DNA of 57,887 nt from Bacteroidota bacterium. Lineage in GTDB: Bacteria; Bacteroidota; Bacteroidia; NS11-12g; UBA9320. Shown here one piece after another: positions 7,889 through 22,798 of this stretch. A program made the translations under genes and the position numbers. The number at the start of each line of letters is the position of its first letter. Positions within the stretch are counted from its first letter, which is position 1. The stretch spans positions 1 through 57,887 of the forward strand of contig JABIUV010000048.1 in the NCBI GenBank assembly GCA_018700895.1, in the 5' to 3' direction. The notes under the pieces are model-generated. The model was not told where the DNA came from. It did not search any database and was given only the letters and a program-made list of their open reading frames with translations.

Positions 7889-9592
7889 TTGAGATATATA
7901 TTAGCAATATTCCTAAGTGTTTACCACCTACTCAGTTTTGGTGTTGACTCTTCACCTCAACTTTTGCGTGCTTGTATCAACTTCACAAACAATACCGTAA
8001 CCATAAGTTGGAAAACTCCAACCGATAATTGTGGCTCCTTCACAAAATATAACCTGTACGCCAAAACAGAAACAGGGACATTTACTCAACTAGCTGAAAT
8101 TAACAACATAGCCACAAACGAATATCTGCACTCTCTTACAGAACCCAATACTAAATGGCAGTATTATTTAGCTACCAAATTCGCTTGTGACAACAGCACC
8201 CTTTTGATTAGTGATACAATAGCTGTAGACATAACCTATCCAGAAAATATTCAGCTTGATTCTGTAAGTTACGACCTAAATACACAAGACATAATCGCGG
8301 GATGGCAACCAAACCCCAGTATTGATACTAAACGTTATGAGCTTTTTGATTTCCGTAGTGGGGACGGTGATTCTATTGGAACTACCATTGATACAAATTT
8401 CAATATATCTCAAGCTCGATCGGGCAGGTTTCCCATCGTACTCGCTACCATAGACAGTTGTTCCTTATCGTCGTTATTATCTACTCCACACAGCCCGTCA
8501 TACTTACAGGCTGGTATCGACACGTGTGAACGAGAAATCACTTTAAAATGGAACACTTACATCGGGTGGGGTGCTGTTGATAGTCAATCTGTTTATGTGT
8601 CTAAAGATAAAATTAACTATACCAAAGTATCAAACCTAGGCGGAAACATAAACAGCTATATCTTTACCGAATTTGTATTGGGTGACACTATCTCATTCTA
8701 CATAAGATCTTACACCAATAAGGGAACAATAACCTCCAGCTCTAATATAGTTACCATCTCGACAAGAAACCTTGTAGTACCAGATTATCTCTACTTAGCA
8801 AATGTCACTGTAAATGATGCAATAGGTAATAACCAAGCACCAATAGCTCTAGAATGGGAAACAACTAAAGTGCAGGATATTGAACTATTCCAGATTAACT
8901 ACGGTTTATCGCCCAACACGCTTATAATCAACCGTGAAGTTAATTCTACGAATTCGTCGGTATATAACCTTATTGACACTAAATCCGACGGCAAAACACA
9001 ATCCGTATATTATCAAATAGTAGCATATGACAAATGTGAAGATCCATTAATTATTTCTCAAATTAGTCAATCTATTCATCTCGACATTTCACCGCTAATT
9101 GTTCATAACGAATATATTAACTGGAAAAATAACGTCGACGAATATCAATTGCTCAAACATGATGGTTCCACGTGGAAACAAATTATATCACAAAACAACC
9201 CTTTTACTTTTACTGACTTTACCGACTCGTCTGGATGTTATAAAGTTGTAGCCATAGAGCAAGAAAATAGTCCAGAAAAAACGGCTACATCACACTCTAA
9301 TATCATCTGCTTTAGCAAACCCCTAGTATATGAAGTGCCATCAGGAGTTAATCCAAATAGTGATAACAATAGATTTATAGTTGTCGGTCAAGGTATAGAC
9401 CATAATAAGTCGCACTACGCTATCTACAATCGGTGGGGCCAGAGAATTGTAAACAACCCTACCAATAAACCTTGGTATTTAGACTACCAGGGTAAACATG
9501 TACAAAACGGAATATATTTATATACTCTCGAAATACACTCAGAAACTGGTATTAAAGAAATAACCAAAGGAACATTTAATGTCATTAGATAG
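7889..9592 (+). CDS. T9SS type B surface protein with FnIII-like domains (gliding-motility type C-terminus)
   Basis: The 567-residue protein starts at a TTG and has a signal peptide (RYILAIFLSVYHLLSFG). Several fibronectin-III-like beta domains follow (WKTPTDNC, WQPNPSIDT, WNTYIGWG blocks). It ends in a CHU_C/T9SS type B domain with the hallmark YNRWGQRI and GIYLYTLEI. It is exported through T9SS and fixed to or released from the surface; some relatives act in gliding or adhesion. On the coding strand C exceeds G, unlike most genes to its right, as expected if it is transcribed towards a replication origin at 13.5 kb. A parS-like palindrome lies inside it at 9164-9179. Its end overlaps ybeY by 14 nt. 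Confidence 0.8.
   Translation: MRYILAIFLSVYHLLSFGVDSSPQLLRACINFTNNTVTISWKTPTDNCGSFTKYNLYAKTETGTFTQLAEINNIATNEYLHSLTEPNTKWQYYLATKFACDNSTLLISDTIAVDITYPENIQLDSVSYDLNTQDIIAGWQPNPSIDTKRYELFDFRSGDGDSIGTTIDTNFNISQARSGRFPIVLATIDSCSLSSLLSTPHSPSYLQAGIDTCEREITLKWNTYIGWGAVDSQSVYVSKDKINYTKVSNLGGNINSYIFTEFVLGDTISFYIRSYTNKGTITSSSNIVTISTRNLVVPDYLYLANVTVNDAIGNNQAPIALEWETTKVQDIELFQINYGLSPNTLIINREVNSTNSSVYNLIDTKSDGKTQSVYYQIVAYDKCEDPLIISQISQSIHLDISPLIVHNEYINWKNNVDEYQLLKHDGSTWKQIISQNNPFTFTDFTDSSGCYKVVAIEQENSPEKTATSHSNIICFSKPLVYEVPSGVNPNSDNNRFIVVGQGIDHNKSHYAIYNRWGQRIVNNPTNKPWYLDYQGKHVQNGIYLYTLEIHSETGIKEITKGTFNVIR
9164..9179. promoter_or_regulatory. Weak parS-like palindrome
   Basis: GGTTCCACGTGGAAAC contains the perfect 12-bp palindrome TTCCACGTGGAA around the CACGTG core of ParB sites. 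It matches the B. subtilis-type parS less well than the two sites downstream, so it may be a secondary site or chance. Confidence 0.35.
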
Positions 9593-10001
9593 AATTTATT
9601 TAGAATCGGATATACAAGATATATCACAACTGTTCCACGTGAAACCCCTAAATCAAATTCACAAAGAATTAGAGATACAAAAACCCTGTATCTATTACAT
9701 TGTAACTGATGATGAACTCCTTCAATTAAATAAGCAAGTATTGAAACACGACTATTATACAGATATTATAACCTTCGATTACGAAGACGATGAAGATATA
9801 GATGAGAATGAAATAGTTATTAGTTGGGATAGGATACAAGACAATGCTCTAACATTAAAACAAGATATACAAAACGAATTTAATAGAGTGTGTATACACG
9901 GTTTATTACACTTGGCTGGATATAAGGATAAGACAAAAACAGAGCAACTAGAGATGACGAAAGCTGAAAACAAATATTTAAAAAAATACTGTTCCACGTG
10001 A
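9579..10001 (+). CDS. ybeY: Endoribonuclease YbeY (16S rRNA maturation)
   Basis: This 140-residue protein has the zinc site H107-x3-H111-x5-D117 in HGLLHLAGYKDKT; the third ligand is the Asp usual in this phylum instead of His. It functions in 3' maturation of 16S rRNA and in ribosome quality control. Start and stop overlap the neighbours tightly (14 nt with the surface-protein gene), which points to one transcript running into mnmG. One parS-like site lies within the gene and another covers its stop codon. Confidence 0.88.
   Translation: MSLDRIYLESDIQDISQLFHVKPLNQIHKELEIQKPCIYYIVTDDELLQLNKQVLKHDYYTDIITFDYEDDEDIDENEIVISWDRIQDNALTLKQDIQNEFNRVCIHGLLHLAGYKDKTKTEQLEMTKAENKYLKKYCST
9631..9646. 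promoter_or_regulatory. parS-like ParB site within ybeY
   Basis: TGTTCCACGTGAAACC matches 15 of 16 positions of the ParB consensus TGTTNCACGTGAAACA known from B. subtilis. It lies 3.9 kb from the putative origin. No parAB genes are present in the window. Confidence 0.6.
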
Positions 10002-10005
10002 AACA
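9990..10005. promoter_or_regulatory. parS site at the ybeY-mnmG junction
   Basis: TGTTCCACGTGAAACA matches the 16-bp ParB consensus TGTTNCACGTGAAACA completely. It covers the ybeY stop codon and its last base directly precedes the mnmG ATG at 10006. ParB bound here could both mark the origin region and impede transcription into mnmG; the second effect is speculation. Confidence 0.75.
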
Positions 10006-11859
10006 ATGAAATACAATTTAATAGTAGTAGGGGCTGGACACGCAGGATGCGAAGCAGCCAATATAGCCGCAAAACTTGGTTCTAAGGTTTTGCTAATTAC
10101 CATGAATATGGAAACTATAGCAAAGATGTCTTGTAATCCAGCGATGGGGGGCGTTGCTAAAGGCCAAATTGTGCGCGAAATTGACGCTCTTGGCGGTTTA
10201 TCTGGTATTGTGTCTGACTATAGTATGATGCAGTTTAGAATGTTAAATACTTCTAAAGGCCCGGCAATGTGGAGTCCCAGGACCCAAAATGATAGAACGT
10301 TGTTCTCGCTTAAGTGGCGAGAACTACTAGAAAATAATTTTAATATCGATTTCATACAAGACTCTGTTAATGAAATACTCATAGATAATAATAAGGCTAA
10401 TGGAGTTAAAACCACCTCAGGTAATACATATTACTCCAACGCAGTAATCGTAACCAGTGGCACTTTTATGAATGGAATAATTCATATCGGTCGCAAACAG
10501 ATTACAGGAGGTAGAATGGGAGATAAGGCTTCATATGGGATTACAGAGCAGTTAGTATCCCTAGGTTTTGAAGCAGGAAGAATGAAGACAGGCACACCAC
10601 CACGAGTGGATGGACGGACCATAAATTATGGAGTTATGGAAGAACAAGCAGGTGATTTAGATCCACAATGTTTTTCCTTTCGAAATCCTATTCAAATAAA
10701 AAAACAACATTCCTGTCATATCACGTATACCAACGAACAAGTACACGACACGTTACGAAGTGCTTTTGCTGATAGTCCATTATTTAATGGCGCTATACAA
10801 GGAGTGGGGCCCAGATACTGTCCTTCGGTTGAGGATAAAGTTAATCGATTTGCGGAGCGTACACGCCACCAAATATTTGTAGAACCAGAAGGCTGGAATA
10901 CGTATGAAACTTATATCAATGGTTTTAGTACTTCTCTTCCACAAGACATACAATTTAAAGCTTTAAGGCAAATTAAGGGATTCGAAAACGCTAAAATATT
11001 TAGACCGGGTTATGCCATAGAGTATGATTTCTTTTATCCAACCCAACTCAAACTTTCATTAGAAACTAAGGTAATAGATAACCTATATTTTGCCGGACAA
11101 ATAAATGGTACAACAGGATACGAGGAAGCTGCCTGCCAAGGACTAATGGCCGGTATAAATGCCCATAATAAAGTAAAAGAAAAAGATTCGTTTATACTAA
11201 AAAGAAGTGATGCATATATAGGTGTACTTATCGATGACCTAATAAACAAAGGAACTAAAGAACCCTATCGCATGTTTACCAGTAGAGCAGAATATAGAAT
11301 TCTACTAAGACAGGATAATGCTGATCTCAGACTTATGCCATTAGCTTATAAACAAGGTACTATTACTCAACAAGAATTTGATAGACTAGAATATAAACGA
11401 TCTAATGTAAATACAATAAATAAAATTATTAAAAAGAAAACTATAACTCCCGTAGAAACTAATCCAGTTCTAGAGAAATATAATACAGCACCAATTCCCC
11501 AAAATTATCATATCGAAAAAGTTCTATCACGTCCACAAATTAATTTTAAACATTTACTTGAGATAGACTCTATAAATAAATTAATGTCAGACTACAATGA
11601 AGATGAACTATTACAATCTGAAATACAACTAAAGTATAAAGGATATATCCAAACAGAAGAAGAAAACGTAGAGAAATTATTACGTCACGAGAACTTAAAA
11701 ATCGATTCTACCTTTGATTTTAATACTATCACTTCTTTATCCCTAGAAGCACGTGATAAGCTTAACCAAATTAAACCTGAAAATATTGGACAAGCATCAC
11801 GAATAAGTGGAGTAAGCCCAGCTGATGTATCTGTATTATTAGTACATTTCGGGCGTTAA
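10006..11859 (+). CDS. mnmG: tRNA uridine-34 5-carboxymethylaminomethyl modification enzyme MnmG (GidA)
   Basis: At 617 residues it has the family length. The FAD-binding GAGHAGCEAA is at residues 9-18, followed by CNPAMGGVAKGQ near 46-57 and GTFMNGIIH near 150. The glycine-rich C-terminal FAD contact is PTQLKLSLETK...FAGQINGTTGYEEAA, and a helical C-terminal domain binds MnmE. With MnmE it modifies the wobble uridine of several tRNAs. mnmG lies near oriC in many bacteria, which fits the origin-like sequence 1.5 kb downstream. Its stop shares one base with the next gene's ATG (TAATG). Confidence 0.96.
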   Translation: MKYNLIVVGAGHAGCEAANIAAKLGSKVLLITMNMETIAKMSCNPAMGGVAKGQIVREIDALGGLSGIVSDYSMMQFRMLNTSKGPAMWSPRTQNDRTLFSLKWRELLENNFNIDFIQDSVNEILIDNNKANGVKTTSGNTYYSNAVIVTSGTFMNGIIHIGRKQITGGRMGDKASYGITEQLVSLGFEAGRMKTGTPPRVDGRTINYGVMEEQAGDLDPQCFSFRNPIQIKKQHSCHITYTNEQVHDTLRSAFADSPLFNGAIQGVGPRYCPSVEDKVNRFAERTRHQIFVEPEGWNTYETYINGFSTSLPQDIQFKALRQIKGFENAKIFRPGYAIEYDFFYPTQLKLSLETKVIDNLYFAGQINGTTGYEEAACQGLMAGINAHNKVKEKDSFILKRSDAYIGVLIDDLINKGTKEPYRMFTSRAEYRILLRQDNADLRLMPLAYKQGTITQQEFDRLEYKRSNVNTINKIIKKKTITPVETNPVLEKYNTAPIPQNYHIEKVLSRPQINFKHLLEIDSINKLMSDYNEDELLQSEIQLKYKGYIQTEEENVEKLLRHENLKIDSTFDFNTITSLSLEARDKLNQIKPENIGQASRISGVSPADVSVLLVHFGR

Positions 11860-13376
11860 TGAAATACATAGTTTTACTAAGTTTACTGTTTTTTAGTTGT
11901 GCATCGGTACAACCTATATCTGGGGGTGAAAAAGACACTAATCCTCCAGAAGTGGTAAGTAGCACAATAGATAGTGCAGCCTTATTTGTAAATAAAAATA
12001 CCGTTACATTTACATTTGATGAATATATAAAAGCTAAAAATACTCAAGAGAACTTACTTATTTCTCCTAACCAAATTAAACCACCTACTATCACAGTTAA
12101 AAATAAAAAACTAACCATAACCTTAAACGATAGCCTTAAAGAAAACACTACGTACACCTATCAGTTTAACGAGACCATACTCGATAATAATGAAGGTAAT
12201 CCTATTACAGATTATAAATTTATATATTCCACTGGGAACTATATAGATTCAGCATTCTATGCAGGAAAAGTTAAGAACTATATAACTAAAGAACCGTGCG
12301 ACGGTTGTAAGATTCTTCTGTACACCAAGTATAGAGACTCTTCTGTTGTATTAGATAAACCTGCCTATATAAGCACAACCAATGAGAACGGTACATTTAA
12401 CTTTACTAACTTACCCAATGATACCTTTTATGCTATGGCCCTACAAGACGGCAATAAAAACTCCAAACTAAACACAGATGAATACGTATCCCTACCTAGA
12501 AAGATAAATACAGAAACCAGTCGAATTGATACCTTCAATATATTTCTAAACAAAAACAGTGATCCATTAAGAATCACCCAAGTAGCTAAAACTCCACCAG
12601 GTGTATTCAAATATAATAGTAACCAACCTTTACTATCTGACTCTATTAAGCTTATAATTAATAATAAACCAGTTTTATTTTCAATAAACCCCTCAAAAGA
12701 TACTATTACTACGATCTATAAGCAACTCGCTGATTCTTTAGATATACTAATCCTCGTGCACATGGATACATTCACTTTTGATCACACTGAAGACTTATCC
12801 TCCATAGAGTACACGATAAAACCCAAGATAACTACCTACCAAAACTACATTGAACTAACAAGTAAAACCCCAATAGAAAATATCGATTCCGCTAAGTTAA
12901 CACTACTTATAGACTCAGTATATCAATCTATTAAACTTTACCGTATAGATACCTTTTCATTTAAGATAAATTATAACTCCAGTTCACACCTAAAATTAAG
13001 TATCCTTAAAGGAGCATTAACAGATATAAATAATAAAGTTAATAAAACCGATACACTGTCTATAGCACCATATAAAGACTTAGAAACCAACCTTAAACTA
13101 ACTATAGTAGCAGACTCTAACACTTCTTATATTCTAACTTTACTCCAAGGAGATAAACCATATTATACCCAATACTTTACTGGCCTAAATGACTTAATAT
13201 TAAATAACATCAAGCCAGGTACATATAAGGTTCGCATAGAAACTGACAGTAACAACAATGATATATGGGATACAGGTGATATATATACTAATAAACCTCC
13301 GGAGCCCATCTTTTTGTCAGAGCCATTTGATATTCGTCAGAACTGGGATAAAGAACTGACTATCAATATAAAATAG
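11859..13376 (+). CDS. Lipoprotein with SbsA/Big_5-like Ig domain
   Basis: This 505-residue lipoprotein has the lipobox LLFFSC in its first 15 residues. An Ig-like domain of the SbsA/Big_5 type follows at about 25-120 (NPPEVVSSTIDSAA, VTFTFDEYIKA, LKENTTYTYQF). The middle region carries a CDGC motif and a carboxypeptidase-regulatory-like beta fold (NENGTFNFTNLPNDTFYAMAL); the C-terminus has a further repeat (IKPGTYKVRIETDSNNN). It is a widespread Bacteroidota envelope protein of unknown role. Base use is striking: on the coding strand one 60-nt line (12121) has 16 C and 7 G by hand count, the reverse of pheS next door. Translation is coupled to mnmG by the 1-nt overlap. Confidence 0.75.
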   Translation: MKYIVLLSLLFFSCASVQPISGGEKDTNPPEVVSSTIDSAALFVNKNTVTFTFDEYIKAKNTQENLLISPNQIKPPTITVKNKKLTITLNDSLKENTTYTYQFNETILDNNEGNPITDYKFIYSTGNYIDSAFYAGKVKNYITKEPCDGCKILLYTKYRDSSVVLDKPAYISTTNENGTFNFTNLPNDTFYAMALQDGNKNSKLNTDEYVSLPRKINTETSRIDTFNIFLNKNSDPLRITQVAKTPPGVFKYNSNQPLLSDSIKLIINNKPVLFSINPSKDTITTIYKQLADSLDILILVHMDTFTFDHTEDLSSIEYTIKPKITTYQNYIELTSKTPIENIDSAKLTLLIDSVYQSIKLYRIDTFSFKINYNSSSHLKLSILKGALTDINNKVNKTDTLSIAPYKDLETNLKLTIVADSNTSYILTLLQGDKPYYTQYFTGLNDLILNNIKPGTYKVRIETDSNNNDIWDTGDIYTNKPPEPIFLSEPFDIRQNWDKELTINIK

Positions 13377-13391
13377 GATTGTTAACATACT

Positions 13392-13412
13392 TAATAACAA
13401 CTAATGTTATTA
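13392..13412. repeat. Inverted repeat in the origin-like region
   Basis: TAATAACA and TGTTATTA form perfect 8-bp arms around ACTAA, 16 nt after the lipoprotein stop codon. No T-run follows on either side, so it is not a standard terminator. Confidence 0.5.
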
Positions 13413-13518
13413 GTGGAGTATAAGACACTTATTCGACGCTATACATAAACTATCCACCTTAGCTTATATTTAACCAACCTGGAGTTAACAATATGACCCG
13501 TATATATACACCATGCTG

Positions 13519-13527
13519 TTATCCACA
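13519..13527 (+). promoter_or_regulatory. Consensus DnaA box
   Basis: TTATCCACA matches the high-affinity DnaA box exactly. It lies in non-coding DNA about 160 nt before the strand-composition flip. Confidence 0.65.
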
Positions 13528-13793
13528 ATACTATGCTTATAACCTAGTTAACACAACCGCACGAATTTGTTAAGTAATAGATTACTAATAACTTAATACC
13601 AATTATACTGTTAAAAAATTGTTATCAACCGTAAATCAAAATTAACTTACGAACCAATTCACACACCTTTAGTTATATACTATTATAAGTTTAATTAATC
13701 TTTTTAAAAAAGTAATAAGAAAGTGGATTGAGGAATTTTGAAAGCTTTGATATGAAGTAAACGAAGAGATTGTTTTTCTTTGTACCAACGATA

Positions 13794-14804
13794 ATGAAAG
13801 AGCAGATAGATAACCTGGTTGACGAATTAAAGAATTTTAAAATTTCATCGAAAGATGAATTAGAAAAATTTAGATTAAAATTTTTGGTAAAAAAGGGTTT
13901 GGTGAATGATCTTTTTAATGAATTCAAAAGCCTGACTGGTGAAGAAAAGAAAAAGTGGGGTAAGGAATTAAATGTAGCTAAGCAAAAGGTTGAATCATTT
14001 TATAAATCGTCACTAGAGCAATTAGAAGAATCTGGAGTTGGAAATAGTGAGGTAGAATCTGAATTACCAGGATATTTTTCAGAACTGGGAGGACGTCATC
14101 CGATAAGTTATGTAGTTGAGGAGATGAATCAAATTTTTGAACGATTAGGGTTTTCTGTGTCGGTAGGTCCAGAAGTGGAGGATGACTGGCATAATTTCTC
14201 TGCATTAAACTTTCCACCTAATCATCCTGCACGAGACATGCAAGATACTTTTTTTGTAGAAGATGATATAGCATTGCGTACTCATACGTCGTCGGTACAG
14301 GTAAGACTCATGGAAGAGGGAAATTTACCTATAAGAAGCGTCATGCCAGGACGTGTTTATAGAAATGAGGCTATTTCAGCCCGTTCTAACTGTTTTTTTC
14401 ATCAGGTTGAGGGTTTATATATAAATAAAGGAGTTTCTTTCTTAGATCTTAAACAAACGCTATATAATTTTGTCCAAGAATTTTTTGGTGCTAATACTAA
14501 GGTTAGATTTAGAGCTTCTTATTTCCCGTTTACAGAACCTAGTGCAGAAATGGATATTTTCCTAGGTACGGAAACGGAGTCTGATTATAAATTAACCAAG
14601 GGAACAGGTTGGTTAGAAATTTTGGGATGTGGAATGGTAGATCCTAATGTTTTAGAAAACTGCAAAATAGATAGTAATGAATATAGTGGCTTTGCTTTTG
14701 GACTAGGAGTAGACCGAATTGCAATGCTCAAATATGGAGTCAAAGATTTACGAACGTTTTTTAACAACGATAAACGTTTCTTAGACCAGTTTGCTACTTT
14801 ATAA
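13794..14804 (+). CDS. pheS: Phenylalanine-tRNA ligase alpha subunit
   Basis: The start is set at MKEQIDNLVDEL (13794) because the in-frame codons from 13770 add a hydrophobic stretch not seen in the family. The 336-residue product has the N-terminal coiled coil that contacts tRNA (residues 1-80) and the class II aminoacyl-tRNA synthetase core: GRHPISYV, the motif 2 region VYRNEAISARSNCFFHQVEG and motif 3 GFAFGLGVDRIAMLKYG. It forms the alpha2-beta2 enzyme with PheT, which is not in this window. The coding strand is G-rich and C-poor (16 G against 5 C in line 13921). Confidence 0.95.
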   Translation: MKEQIDNLVDELKNFKISSKDELEKFRLKFLVKKGLVNDLFNEFKSLTGEEKKKWGKELNVAKQKVESFYKSSLEQLEESGVGNSEVESELPGYFSELGGRHPISYVVEEMNQIFERLGFSVSVGPEVEDDWHNFSALNFPPNHPARDMQDTFFVEDDIALRTHTSSVQVRLMEEGNLPIRSVMPGRVYRNEAISARSNCFFHQVEGLYINKGVSFLDLKQTLYNFVQEFFGANTKVRFRASYFPFTEPSAEMDIFLGTETESDYKLTKGTGWLEILGCGMVDPNVLENCKIDSNEYSGFAFGLGVDRIAMLKYGVKDLRTFFNNDKRFLDQFATL

Positions 14805-15128: not shown

Positions 15129-15407
15129 TTACTTAATCATTTCTTCTGCAGCCTCAGCAGCACCTTCTACAGCGTCACCAGCAGCCTCAGCAGCACCTTC
15201 TACAGCGTCACCAGCAGCTTCAGCAGCAGCTTCTACAGTATCAGCAGCAGCTTCTACAGCGTCACCAGCAGCGTCTAACAAACTTTCAGCCTCAGCCTCA
15301 GCACCTTCTACAGTTTCAGTTGCAGCTTCTTCAGTTTCAGCAGCATTGTTACAAGCAGTAAATGCGAATACAGAAACGATAGCGAATAGAGCAATAATTT
15401 TTTTCAT
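15129..15407 (-). CDS. Small Ala/Glu-rich lipoprotein with 11-residue repeats
   Basis: The start is placed at MKKIIALFAIVSVFAF (15407), which gives a lipoprotein signal with lipobox FTAC; the upstream ATG at 15446 lies before the -7 element. The mature chain of about 73 residues is low-complexity Ala, Glu, Asp and Gly. It contains the unit AAGDAVEGAAE twice plus degenerate copies, an 11-residue periodicity typical of amphipathic surface-lying helices. Role is unknown; a membrane- or cell-wall-associated helix is an inference. A -7 element and a strong terminator make it a single-gene unit. Confidence 0.7.
   Translation of the reverse strand: MKKIIALFAIVSVFAFTACNNAAETEEAATETVEGAEAEAESLLDAAGDAVEAAADTVEAAAEAAGDAVEGAAEAAGDAVEGAAEAAEEMIK
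15148..15246 (-). repeat. 33-bp tandem repeats coding for 11-mers
   Basis: Two exact 33-bp copies (15148-15180 and 15181-15213) are followed by a degenerate third copy. They encode the AAGDAVEGAAE units and could expand or contract by slippage. Confidence 0.7.
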
Positions 15408-15443
15408 TTTACGTAAAATTTTAATTGTTAAATATTTAAGCCA

Positions 15444-15451
15444 CAAATATA
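15444..15451 (-). promoter_or_regulatory. -7 promoter element for the Ala-rich lipoprotein
   Basis: TATATTTG on the minus strand fits TAnnTTTG. It lies 37 nt upstream of the ATG at 15407, which also argues against the ATG at 15446. Confidence 0.45.
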
Positions 15452-18453: not shown

Positions 18454-21400
18454 TCAAGATTGAACAAGTTTCCCATACGGAACCTTTACCAGGTATTGAG
18501 CCTCTAGCGTGAGGTGACCAAAGTCAGAAGAAACCTTGCCGCGAATGAGGTAGATGCCTCGCCCTTTGAACTTGTATCGCCTAGCGATGAGCGGGAAGTG
18601 CACACTATCAAAAAACTGTCCATCCATATCCATAAATGTCCCAAAAAACATTTCCTGCTCCACGCGTCCCTTGGTTTTGGTACGTTTGGTATGCACAAGG
18701 TAGCCTAATAAGGTGATGGTTTTGCCCAAGTTGTTTTTAAAATCGGCACTTACGGTTTGGCTTTTTTTCTCATCTTCATCTATCAGTTCAAAAGGCGAAC
18801 ACATCGCAAAACCCAAGTACTCTATCTCGCCCATAGCATCTTCGTAGGGCACAGCATCTAGCTCTGGAATGGTTACTTTTTTAGTATCGGTATACTGAGC
18901 AAAGAGGCTGGGTAATGCCATACTTTTTTTTACGGCTGCTAGCAAAAAATGAGCTTTCCACAACAGCCAATGCTTGGTTTTTCCGGTAAGCCGAAAAGCA
19001 TTTACCCGAATGAGAATTACCGTTTGGTCTAGACTTATAGACACGCGTTGCGTGAAATCCTCTAAGTTATCAAATGGTCCATAGTCTCGTCTATTAATAA
19101 GCAGGGCATCTATCACCTTGCCTTCTAGTTCGGCTACGTGCTGAAAACCAAGGAAGATACGAGTGCCACGTATGGTGGTGTCAAAATTGCTACGGTTTAC
19201 ACACGGCAGTTCTATGTGTGCACCTTTTAGCCGTGCCTCTTGTATGTACTGCTCCGTACGGTAAAATCCTCCAAAATTATTGACCGTAGCCACCATATAT
19301 TCCAACGGGAAATAAGCTTTGAGAAAAAGACTCTGATAACTCTCCACCGCGTAGCTTGCAGAGTGCCCCTTGGCAAAGGCATAACTCGCAAAACTCTCTA
19401 TCTGTGTCCATACTTCTTTGGTAAGTTTGGGGTCGTAGCCCTTCTTTTTACAGTTGTCAAAAAAGAGTTTTTCTACCGTTTTGAACTCTGTACGTTCTCT
19501 ATATTTCCAACTCATCCCCCGCCTCAGTATGTCAGACTCTTCTAGCGTAAGCCCTGCAAAGTAGTGAGCCACCTTGAGTACATCCTCTTGGTACACCATC
19601 ACCCCATAGGTGTCGTGCAGTATTTTCGCAAGTACAGGATGCGTTTTTTTTCTAGCTTCGGGGTTGCGGTGGCGTTTTATATACTCGCCCATCATACCAC
19701 TATTACTCACACCAGGACGTATGATAGAACTGGCAGCCACTAGCCCACGGTAGTCGTCTACTTCTAGCTTTTTCATAAGGGCTCGCATAGCAGGACTCTC
19801 CACATAAAAACAGCCTATGGCATCACCTCTACGTAGCAGGTCTTTTATTTTCTCGTCTTTTTTAAAACGGTCTATATCGTCTATGTCAAAGTCGGGAGCA
19901 TCGGGCTGATTTTGCTTTATGATAGTGATGGCATCTTTTATCTTGCCCAGTCCACGTTGCCCTAAGATATCGTATTTATATATGCCTGCATCTTCGGCTA
20001 TGTGCATATCAAAATGTGCCGTGGGAAAACCCTTGGGCGGCATACTCGTCGCCCCGTAGTATTGGATGGGTCGCTCCGTGATGACTATACCACTGCTGTG
20101 TATGCTCAGGTGATTTGGAAAACCGTGAATATACCTACTGTAGAGCATGCACAGTTTGCCGAGTTGATCTAAGTCCTGCGGCTTATCGGTACGTTGTATG
20201 TTTTTTATTTCGTCGGCAGGCAGACCGAGCACCTTGCCTATCTCGCGTATTATCGACCGAGCTTGGAAGGTAACAAAACTGCCCATCAGAGCCGTGTTGG
20301 GAAAAGTATCAAAGATGTATCGCGTTACATCTTGGCGGTCTCGCCAGCTAAAATCGATGTCAAAATCGGGCGGAGATTTACGACTAGGGTTAATGAATCG
20401 CTCAAAGTAGAGGTCGAGTTCTATGGGGTCTACATTGGTAATGCGGAGCAGGTAAGCTACGAGACTATTGGCACCGCTTCCTCGCCCTACATAAAAGTAA
20501 CCTTGCTTGCGAGCGTAGGTCACGATATTGTGATTGATGAGGAAATAGGGCACAAAATTGCATTCTTTGATTACACCTAGTTCCTTGGCTACACGGTCCT
20601 TTACCTCTTGCGACACCTTGTTTCCGTATCGGTATTTCAGCCCTTCTTTAGTGAGTTGTTGTAGTAGGGCGTAATCTTGTTTTTTGGTTTGGGTAAATGT
20701 GCGTTTGTTGGCGAGTTTGGTCTTGTCGTTAAAGTCAAAATGTAGGTTGCATTGAGCCAACAGTTTCTCTGTATTTTCAAGTAAATATTCGTGTCCGGCA
20801 TATAGGTTTTGAAGCTCGTGTGGCGAATAAAATTTGTGATGCATTTCACCCTGTTCCTCTACGGGTAATTTGCTTAGCAGAGCATTTTTATCAATGGCAC
20901 GTAATAGGCGGTGGGCGTTGTAATCCCTTTTGTTGCGAAAAGTGACGGGGTTTAGGGCGAGGTATTTGTTTACGTGTAGGTTCGTGCCTCTGAGGCATGA
21001 ACCTACACGTAGATTAAATAATTCCGTATGATTCACCCCTATGTATTCATTGCTTCGCAAAGGTCTGTCGGGTACGTTTTTTAATGGATAAATGATAAAG
21101 GCGTTTTTTATTGTAGGAACACGCCTCCAAGGCGTGTTCCTACCTGAATCCAATAAAAATTCGGTTAGGTAGAAATTAATATTCTGAAACCCTTCATTGT
21201 CCTTGGCTATCGCAATGAACTGCTGCTCGTTTCCTTTTCTAAAATCTACACCCATTATCACAGGCCATCCACGCCTTTGGCATTCAAAGGCGTGATACAA
21301 ACATCCTGATGTACTGTTGATGTCTGTGAGGGCAATTTTTGTTTCCATAGGAATACGCTTCTGTAGGAATACGCCTTCAGGCGTGTTATTACATGTGGAA

Positions 21401-21477
21401 TCCGCCTCGCCCAACAGTTCCTTGGGCGACATCGTCCCGTATTTGAAAGAGTAATATGTGTGGCAGTTTAGGTACAT
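18454..21477 (-). CDS. dnaE: DNA polymerase III alpha subunit, DnaE2/ImuC-like translesion type
   Basis: The 1007-residue protein is shorter than the replicative DnaE (about 1160-1500). It has an N-terminal PHP domain (HTYYSFKYG), the C-family active site GRGSGA at 331-336 and PDFDIDF with D371 and D373, and a third catalytic region YDILGQRGLG. A helix-hairpin-helix region and a C-terminal OB fold (KTITLLGYLVHTKRT) follow. It lies 40 nt downstream of dinB, the usual pairing for error-prone repair synthesis. The PHP-to-palm region holds three palindromic DNA elements read in frame (residues about 29-39, 112-122 and 156-169), each between conserved blocks and giving odd insert-like peptides. 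No ImuA or RecA-like partner is next to it. Confidence 0.85.
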   Translation of the reverse strand: MYLNCHTYYSFKYGTMSPKELLGEADSTCNNTPEGVFLQKRIPMETKIALTDINSTSGCLYHAFECQRRGWPVIMGVDFRKGNEQQFIAIAKDNEGFQNINFYLTEFLLDSGRNTPWRRVPTIKNAFIIYPLKNVPDRPLRSNEYIGVNHTELFNLRVGSCLRGTNLHVNKYLALNPVTFRNKRDYNAHRLLRAIDKNALLSKLPVEEQGEMHHKFYSPHELQNLYAGHEYLLENTEKLLAQCNLHFDFNDKTKLANKRTFTQTKKQDYALLQQLTKEGLKYRYGNKVSQEVKDRVAKELGVIKECNFVPYFLINHNIVTYARKQGYFYVGRGSGANSLVAYLLRITNVDPIELDLYFERFINPSRKSPPDFDIDFSWRDRQDVTRYIFDTFPNTALMGSFVTFQARSIIREIGKVLGLPADEIKNIQRTDKPQDLDQLGKLCMLYSRYIHGFPNHLSIHSSGIVITERPIQYYGATSMPPKGFPTAHFDMHIAEDAGIYKYDILGQRGLGKIKDAITIIKQNQPDAPDFDIDDIDRFKKDEKIKDLLRRGDAIGCFYVESPAMRALMKKLEVDDYRGLVAASSIIRPGVSNSGMMGEYIKRHRNPEARKKTHPVLAKILHDTYGVMVYQEDVLKVAHYFAGLTLEESDILRRGMSWKYRERTEFKTVEKLFFDNCKKKGYDPKLTKEVWTQIESFASYAFAKGHSASYAVESYQSLFLKAYFPLEYMVATVNNFGGFYRTEQYIQEARLKGAHIELPCVNRSNFDTTIRGTRIFLGFQHVAELEGKVIDALLINRRDYGPFDNLEDFTQRVSISLDQTVILIRVNAFRLTGKTKHWLLWKAHFLLAAVKKSMALPSLFAQYTDTKKVTIPELDAVPYEDAMGEIEYLGFAMCSPFELIDEDEKKSQTVSADFKNNLGKTITLLGYLVHTKRTKTKGRVEQEMFFGTFMDMDGQFFDSVHFPLIARRYKFKGRGIYLIRGKVSSDFGHLTLEAQYLVKVPYGKLVQS
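20971..21011. repeat. In-frame palindromic element A in dnaE
   Basis: Two 20-bp arms (20971-20990 and 20992-21011) pair with one mismatch. The core is GTAGGTTCGTGCCTC. It encodes RVGSCLRGTNLHV between conserved DnaE blocks. Confidence 0.75.
21113..21143. repeat. In-frame palindromic element B in dnaE
   Basis: GTAGGAACACGCCT and AGGCGTGTTCCTAC form perfect 14-bp arms around a CCA loop. It encodes GRNTPWRRVPT and shares the GTAGG...CCTAC frame with elements A and C. Confidence 0.75.
21346..21392. repeat. In-frame palindromic element C in dnaE, partly duplicated
   Basis: GTAGGAATACGCC and GGCGTGTTATTAC (21363-21392) form an imperfect 13-bp palindrome with three mismatches. Just before it, TAGGAATACGCTTC is a partial second copy of one arm. 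Together they encode NNTPEGVFLQKRIP near the N-terminus. Confidence 0.65.
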
Positions 21478-21517
21478 TTTTAGCTAGCTGTTTTACAACG
21501 AGTGCTTTTATAACCAC

Positions 21518-22726
21518 CTACGCATTCCGATGTGCCGGCACCACATTGGGTTCGCCGTTAAAGGGGTTGCCGCGGCCCAGGCCTTTTACTTCTACCGCCA
21601 CACCACGCCTTACGGCATTGGCACCGTAGCGGTCTTTCATCGCATCCATAGCTTGGTATAGGTTTATGATTCTATCGTCGTCATTAAAAAGGTCTATCTG
21701 GTGACCACCACCTGCCAAGTCGCCTAGCCGCACGCCCACCAGCCGTATGCGTACGCGGCGGCTGTATAGCGAGTCAAAGAGTTCTTTGGCGTGTTGTATG
21801 AGCGTATGGTCAGCCGCAGTGTAAGGTATGCGTTTCTGCTTGCTGACCGTCTGAAAATCGGAGTACCGCAGCTTGATACTAACATTAGAACATACCCGCT
21901 TACCGTGCCGCAGCTCGTAGGCCAGTTGCTCCACCATGGCTGCTACCATATCTTTGAGTTTGCGGATATCTATGGTGTCTTTCATAAATGTACGTTCGGT
22001 GCTTATGCTCTTTTTTTCGTGGTAGGGTATGAGTGGACTGTGGTCTATTCCGTTGGCTTTTTGCCACATCATTTTTCCGTTTTTGCCAAAGGCTTTTTCA
22101 AGTAATTCTATGGGCATTTCTTGTAGCGTATGTATTTTTTGTACGCCCATACGATTGAGCATAAAGGCCGTTTTTTTACCAATCATCGGTATTTTTTTGA
22201 CGGATAGTGGAGCTAAAAAAGGCTTTTCGTCTCCAAAATCTATTTTCAACTGATTGTCTGGCTTAGCCTCGCCCGTGGCTACCTTGCTTACGGTTTTGTT
22301 CACAGACATACCAAAAGAGATAGGCAGTCCCGTCTCTTTGGTGATGCGGGTGCGTAACTCGCTGGCCAGTTTGTAGCAGCCAAAAAACTTGTCCATACCT
22401 GTGAGGTCCAGATAAAACTCATCAATGCTACTTTTTTCTACCACGGGAGCTGTTTCGCGTATGATTTCGGTTACGGTTTTGGAGTATTTGGAGTAGGTGC
22501 CTGAGTTGCCTTTTATCACGATGCCTTGTGGGCAAAGTTGGCGGGCCATTTTCATACTCATACCACTATGTACCCCAAAGGTACGTGCCTCGTAACTGCA
22601 ACTGGCCACCACGCCCCTGTCACCCACCCCACCTAGCAATACAGGCTTACCCACTAGGCGTGAGTCTATGAGCCGCTCTACCGATACGTAGAAGGTGTCC
22701 AAATCCATATGCACTATATTTTTAGT
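21518..22726 (-). CDS. dinB: DNA polymerase IV (Y family)
   Basis: The catalytic acidic motifs are MDLDTFYVSVE near the start and SSIDEFYLDLTGMD near residue 100. The little-finger domain follows, then a beta-clamp binding motif QIDLF near the C-terminus. I choose the TTG at 22726 because it gives MTKNIVHMDLDTF, the usual spacing; a TTG at 22765 or the ATG at 22708 are alternatives. It copies past damaged bases and probably shares a transcript with the dnaE gene 40 nt downstream. An isolated consensus DnaA box lies upstream at 22790. Confidence 0.92.
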   Translation of the reverse strand, partial: TKNIVHMDLDTFYVSVERLIDSRLVGKPVLLGGVGDRGVVASCSYEARTFGVHSGMSMKMARQLCPQGIVIKGNSGTYSKYSKTVTEIIRETAPVVEKSSIDEFYLDLTGMDKFFGCYKLASELRTRITKETGLPISFGMSVNKTVSKVATGEAKPDNQLKIDFGDEKPFLAPLSVKKIPMIGKKTAFMLNRMGVQKIHTLQEMPIELLEKAFGKNGKMMWQKANGIDHSPLIPYHEKKSISTERTFMKDTIDIRKLKDMVAAMVEQLAYELRHGKRVCSNVSIKLRYSDFQTVSKQKRIPYTAADHTLIQHAKELFDSLYSRRVRIRLVGVRLGDLAGGGHQIDLFNDDDRIINLYQAMDAMKDRYGANAVRRGVAVEVKGLGRGNPFNGEPNVVPAHRNA

Positions 22727-22789
22727 CAATATTATTATCTTTTTTGTTGAGCATAATTTAATCAAAAAGAAAACTGTAAAGCAAGAAAA

Positions 22790-22798
22790 TGTGGATAA
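22790..22798 (-). promoter_or_regulatory. Isolated consensus DnaA box upstream of dinB
   Basis: TGTGGATAA is the exact complement of TTATCCACA. It lies in the divergent dinB/22832 intergenic region. One such hit in 58 kb can occur by chance. Confidence 0.3.

Follow-up and report, generated by a model that had tools for sequence, protein, structure and literature searches.

The non-coding gap that separates a lipoprotein gene with a Big_5 Ig-like domain from pheS in the window analysed here (the whole stretch of 57,887 nucleotides, from a Bacteroidota bacterium) is very probably the chromosomal replication origin, oriC (Table 1). The original prediction had proposed this gap as the origin, and the proposal is now backed by a switch of the GC skew, the conservation of the gap among relatives, the clustering of parS sites in its vicinity, its box and trio sequences and a low duplex stability. 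As anticipated, the gap constitutes a gene-free and AT-rich stretch of ~400 nt: its G+C content is 28%, no ORF longer than 39 aa lies wholly inside it, the comparison with Rfam yielded no match at E≤1, and RNA folding disclosed nothing unusual and no stable fold (z −0.47). Also in agreement with the prediction, mnmG ends 1.5 kb upstream of the gap.

Since the source genome is a draft of 59 contigs, GC skew was examined in the window and in relatives, mainly in the near-complete congener G009, which consists of one contig of 2,408,626 bp. Cumulative skew had been proposed as the check on the origin claim, and its outcome favoured the gap: in 400 contiguous kb around mnmG, the G009 minimum appeared at position 2,107,904, and the orthologous gap, which spans 2,107,578–2,107,974, contains this position. 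Samples of 20 kb taken every 120 kb along this contig showed a positive skew rightward from the gap to ~0.85 Mb and a negative one from there back to the gap, apart from a single sample close to zero at 1.80 Mb. A single origin-type switch (from − to +) was located at the gap and a terminus-type switch (from + to −) at ~0.85–0.95 Mb, ~1.2 Mb from the gap, which is half a chromosome; no comparable second origin-type switch was present in the samples along the rest of the contig. A model of third-position skew that allowed for gene strand and for a single change placed that change at the gap in the window, where none of the 44 alternatives fitted better, and equally in G009 (0/319) and in G053, a member of another family (0/188) in which the raw minimum lies 42 kb away. 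In G024, from another genus, the raw minimum (86,903) falls inside its own gap and the corrected fit ~40 kb to the right. Agreement was approximate in G011, whose raw minimum falls 29 kb rightward of the gap and whose corrected fit falls 18–39 kb leftward. G037, in which the junction is broken and pheS is not adjacent, has a skew that gives no indication for mnmG.

The gene order CHU_C protein–ybeY–mnmG–Big_5 lipoprotein–gap–pheS is kept in relatives of the genus and the family, and the length of the orthologous gap remains steady at about 390–440 nt while the identity of the lipoprotein drops to 27–47%. Two most conserved blocks stand out within the gap, one comprising the 5′ box and the inverted repeat (~13380) and the other one, at ~13647–13675, corresponding to the box-trio element described below; the last ~90 nt before pheS are poorly conserved. 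Draft contigs of four relatives (L002, L004, L005 and L008) terminate in or just before the lipoprotein–pheS gap. A dinB–dnaE–era–der block of G009 (contig C1, 2224030–2230762) is separated from the proposed origin by ~115 kb and has the opposite orientation to that in the window, the lipoprotein–gap–pheS junction being unchanged. Further along the window, a small lipoprotein-like protein with a repetitive Ala/Glu-rich tail and without Pfam match is encoded at 15129–15446, relatives matching its N-terminal part only. At 18454–22765, a DNA polymerase III alpha-like protein of 1007 aa, with no PHP-domain match, adjoins a DinB/ImuB-family Y polymerase, a pair that resembles an ImuB/DnaE2-like mutasome cassette near the proposed origin.

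The perfect DnaA box TTATCCACA, the three GTTAAC sites and the inverted repeat that had been originally reported in the gap were all recovered. Genome-wide, TTATCCACA is present in 8 copies in 2.42 Mb versus 57 of the reversed control pattern, and its expectation in shuffles of the gap is 0.01. The corresponding position is occupied by TTATCCACA, TTATTAACA or TTATAAACA in six relatives and, likewise, TTATTAACA, TTATCAACA or TTATACACA appears at or beside the position of the leftmost box in the alignment of seven relatives. The GTTAAC words, at 13381, 13484 and 13547, represent three of the six copies in the window, over the whole of which 20 are expected. According to the alignment, at least some of these words, as well as the inverted repeat, correspond to degenerate positions of TTATNMACA-type DnaA boxes and not to a separate motif. 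Exact TTATNMACA matches amounted to 19 in 11 orthologous gaps versus 2.6 expected, a figure matched in 0 of 200 shuffles. The gap of the window contains few boxes, with 1 exact TTATNMACA, the presence of DnaA boxes in this non-coding region being strong across orthologues and modest in the window alone. The case for the gap rests on position, conservation, parS and skew, not on the count of boxes. In the complete genome of Emticicia sp. 21SJ11W-3, an intergenic region located 4 kb downstream of mnmG (L019, 14686–15249) contains six TTATNMACA boxes, three of them perfect, and is a candidate oriC of that genome.

The published layout of the basal unwinding system (BUS) comprises a DnaA box with at most two mismatches, a spacer of up to 16 nt and at least three trios (PMC8287927), an arrangement that three relatives (L002, L003 and L006) display with spacers within 0–16 nt. 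Four consecutive trios follow the box at 10–13 nt in these genomes and in L007, whose box has three mismatches, and the box-then-trio run was equalled in 0 of 300 shuffles in each of the four. In L002 it reads GAATCCACA-GACACTTATA-CTACTACTATTA, that is, a DnaA box followed by 10 nt of spacer and then by four trio complements (of 3′-GAT-5′/3′-AAT-5′). The element of the window is degenerate, with three mismatches in its box and two strict trios (3′-GAT-AAT-5′ on the − strand); 126 of 300 shuffles were at least as good, so it is not significant alone, and its position and homology weakly suggest a BUS-like role. Its orientation, assigned from E. coli and the BUS model, is presumably that of a box reading toward the unwinding side with the trios on the complementary strand. 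The 40 bp with the lowest thermodynamic stability in the whole window overlap the right end of this element, beside the trios, and probably act as the DNA unwinding element.

The parS-like sites that had been placed 3.5–4.4 kb from the origin are indeed present, at a measured distance of 3.4–4.2 kb from the gap. These three sites (9990, 9631 and 9164) account for almost the entire parS-like complement of the genome, with one more near-match, bearing an intact CACGTG core, on contig C12. The counterpart of the 9164 site is intact in many relatives, about 830–850 bp upstream of the first parS. In relatives, too, almost all parS sites are found at the 5′ end of mnmG, usually at the ybeY–mnmG junction. 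All 35 relatives for which both an intact site was listed and mnmG was located have such a site less than 1 kb from the mnmG match, a count that includes one genome (G012) represented by a C-terminal mnmG fragment only. In loci of Chryseobacterium, Mucilaginibacter, Emticicia and Cytophagales parS flanks mnmG too. The genome encodes one ParB and one DnaA, the latter with a canonical-looking domain IV signature (GRDHSTV). The dnaA gene does not adjoin the gap but is located on another contig, C8; in G009 it is found 0.85 Mb from the skew minimum, nearer the terminus switch, and in G053 its distance from mnmG is 1.09 Mb.

Table 1. Features of the proposed origin region (positions in the window)
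Feature	Position	Strand	Basis or remarks
parS-like site, 3 mismatches, probably decayed second site	9164–9179		palindrome match
ybeY	9579–10001	+	PF02130
parS-like site, 1 mismatch, inside ybeY	9631–9646		palindrome match
parS TGTTCCACGTGAAACA, exact, ybeY–mnmG junction	9990–10005		palindrome match
mnmG/gidA	10006–11859	+	PF01134
Lipoprotein gene, Big_5 Ig-like domain	11859–13376	+	PF13205
Non-coding gap, Big_5 lipoprotein gene to pheS; very probable oriC	13377–13793		skew, comparison of relatives, box content
DnaA-box-like site TTGTTAACA	13379–13387	+	alignment; within the 5′ one of the two best-conserved blocks
Inverted repeat TAATAACA-N5-TGTTATTA, arms box-like	13392–13412		sequence and alignment
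Perfect DnaA box TTATCCACA	13519–13527	+	sequence and alignment
DnaA-box-like site TTATCAACC	13622–13630	+	TTATTAACC in L002 and L003
Putative BUS-like element (CAATTCACA box, spacer of 16 nt, CTA-TTA trios)	13655–13685	+	alignment; layout of PMC8287927
Probable DNA unwinding element	13674–13713		40 bp of lowest duplex stability in the window
pheS (ATG at 13794)	13794–14804	+	PF01409, PF02912

We infer that DnaA binding, unwinding and initiation take place at the gap, and ParB binding at parS. DnaA produced from its distant gene might bind the box-like sites across 13379–13663, and the rightmost box (~13655–13663) would seed a DnaA filament rightward onto the 3′-GAT-5′-type trios at ~13680. 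The filament could then melt the AT-rich stretch at 13674–13713 before pheS, where the helicase would be loaded, and forks would proceed both ways, to the left through mnmG and the parS cluster and to the right through pheS. Binding of ParB to the parS cluster would allow segregation of the newly copied origin. As a tentative idea, which we consider possible and not probable, mnmG with the parS at its 5′ end, the Big_5 lipoprotein gene and oriC could form one module kept across much of Bacteroidota, in which selection holds the centromere and the unwinding site a few kb apart while dnaA moves freely.

It is very improbable that the gap merely serves pheS as a promoter or leader region, with an AT content that is high by default and box matches that are incidental. 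pheS requires a promoter, the poor conservation of the pheS-proximal end is that of ordinary promoters, and boxes are few in the gap of the window; however, the most conserved blocks are the end far from pheS and the box-trio element, and the skew switches exactly at the gap in several genomes. An RNA leader before pheS was rejected on the grounds of the Rfam and folding results. No more credible is an origin placed close by but elsewhere, at the parS cluster (9–10 kb), the dinB promoter or a gap at ~15 kb. The raw cumulative skew of the window does reach its minimum at 19,868, and a second perfect TTATCCACA is found at 22790, before dinB. The former was discarded as a coding-strand effect, since the strand-corrected change point favours 13.4 kb in the window and, in two further genomes, the equivalent gap. 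The latter was likewise rejected as the origin; in G009 the der–era–dnaE–dinB block is distant and inverted, yet the skew switch stays at the lipoprotein–pheS junction.

In other phyla, and in many model bacteria, dnaA often adjoins oriC, and an origin at or near dnaA could be expected on these grounds. The position of dnaA on a separate contig here, and its distances from the skew minimum of G009 and from mnmG in G053, make this the least credible of the alternatives. Besides, oriC distal to dnaA has been stated as common in Bacteroidetes, including Prevotella intermedia (PMC4755523), and in gut species, Bacteroidetes among them, origins do not track dnaA as judged by parS, GC skew and read coverage (PMC10197239).

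The gap between the lipoprotein gene and pheS appears therefore as a well-supported new example and not as a new kind of origin, since dnaA-distal, mnmG-adjacent origins of Bacteroidota have already been published. The original prediction had regarded a gene setting without dnaA as undescribed, a view that does not hold in the light of the dnaA-distal oriC reported earlier (PMC4755523) and of the mnmG-adjacent oriC predicted with Ori-Finder 2022 in the Flavobacteriaceae Mariniflexile litorale (PMC11278836) and Algorimicrobium bowmanii (PMC12843772). No account of precisely this setting was found in the open-access literature on oriC with pheS or on parS in Bacteroidetes. The present analysis adds a position resolved to the base, bounded by the Big_5 lipoprotein gene and pheS, an anatomy of boxes, trios and an AT-rich stretch, and a close linkage of parS to mnmG across the order. 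For a Bacteroidota lineage represented here by draft genomes only, these data provide a sequence-level origin together with its proposed unwinding element and centromere, and they point to mnmG–parS synteny, not dnaA, as the marker for locating origins in draft genomes of the group, with uses in growth-rate estimates from read depth and in rotating assemblies.

As in M. litorale and A. bowmanii, the proposed origin of this member of the Bacteroidota lies beside mnmG and was placed by GC skew, and in Mariniflexile the position of dnaA did not fit the skew either (PMC11278836). Unlike those predictions, the gap is pinned here across genera, from the Big_5 lipoprotein gene to pheS, and its description includes parS and a box-trio element. 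The oriC of P. intermedia is also far from dnaA and was found by skew and DnaA boxes, but this species belongs to another order, and the oriC passage of PMC4755523 names no mnmG neighbour. The succession of a DnaA box, a spacer of 10–16 nt, a run of 3′-GAT-5′ trios and an easily melted stretch resembles the BUS of B. subtilis (PMC6669920, PMC8287927), from which it differs in its degenerate box (GAATCCACA or CAATTCACA) and, in the window, in having only two strict trios. Finally, the mnmG neighbourhood is shared with the E. coli-type mioC–oriC–mnmG origin (Y. pestis setting, PMC10225481); whereas in that type oriC is located between gidA (mnmG) and mioC, here it lies downstream of mnmG, with the lipoprotein gene in between and pheS on the other side.
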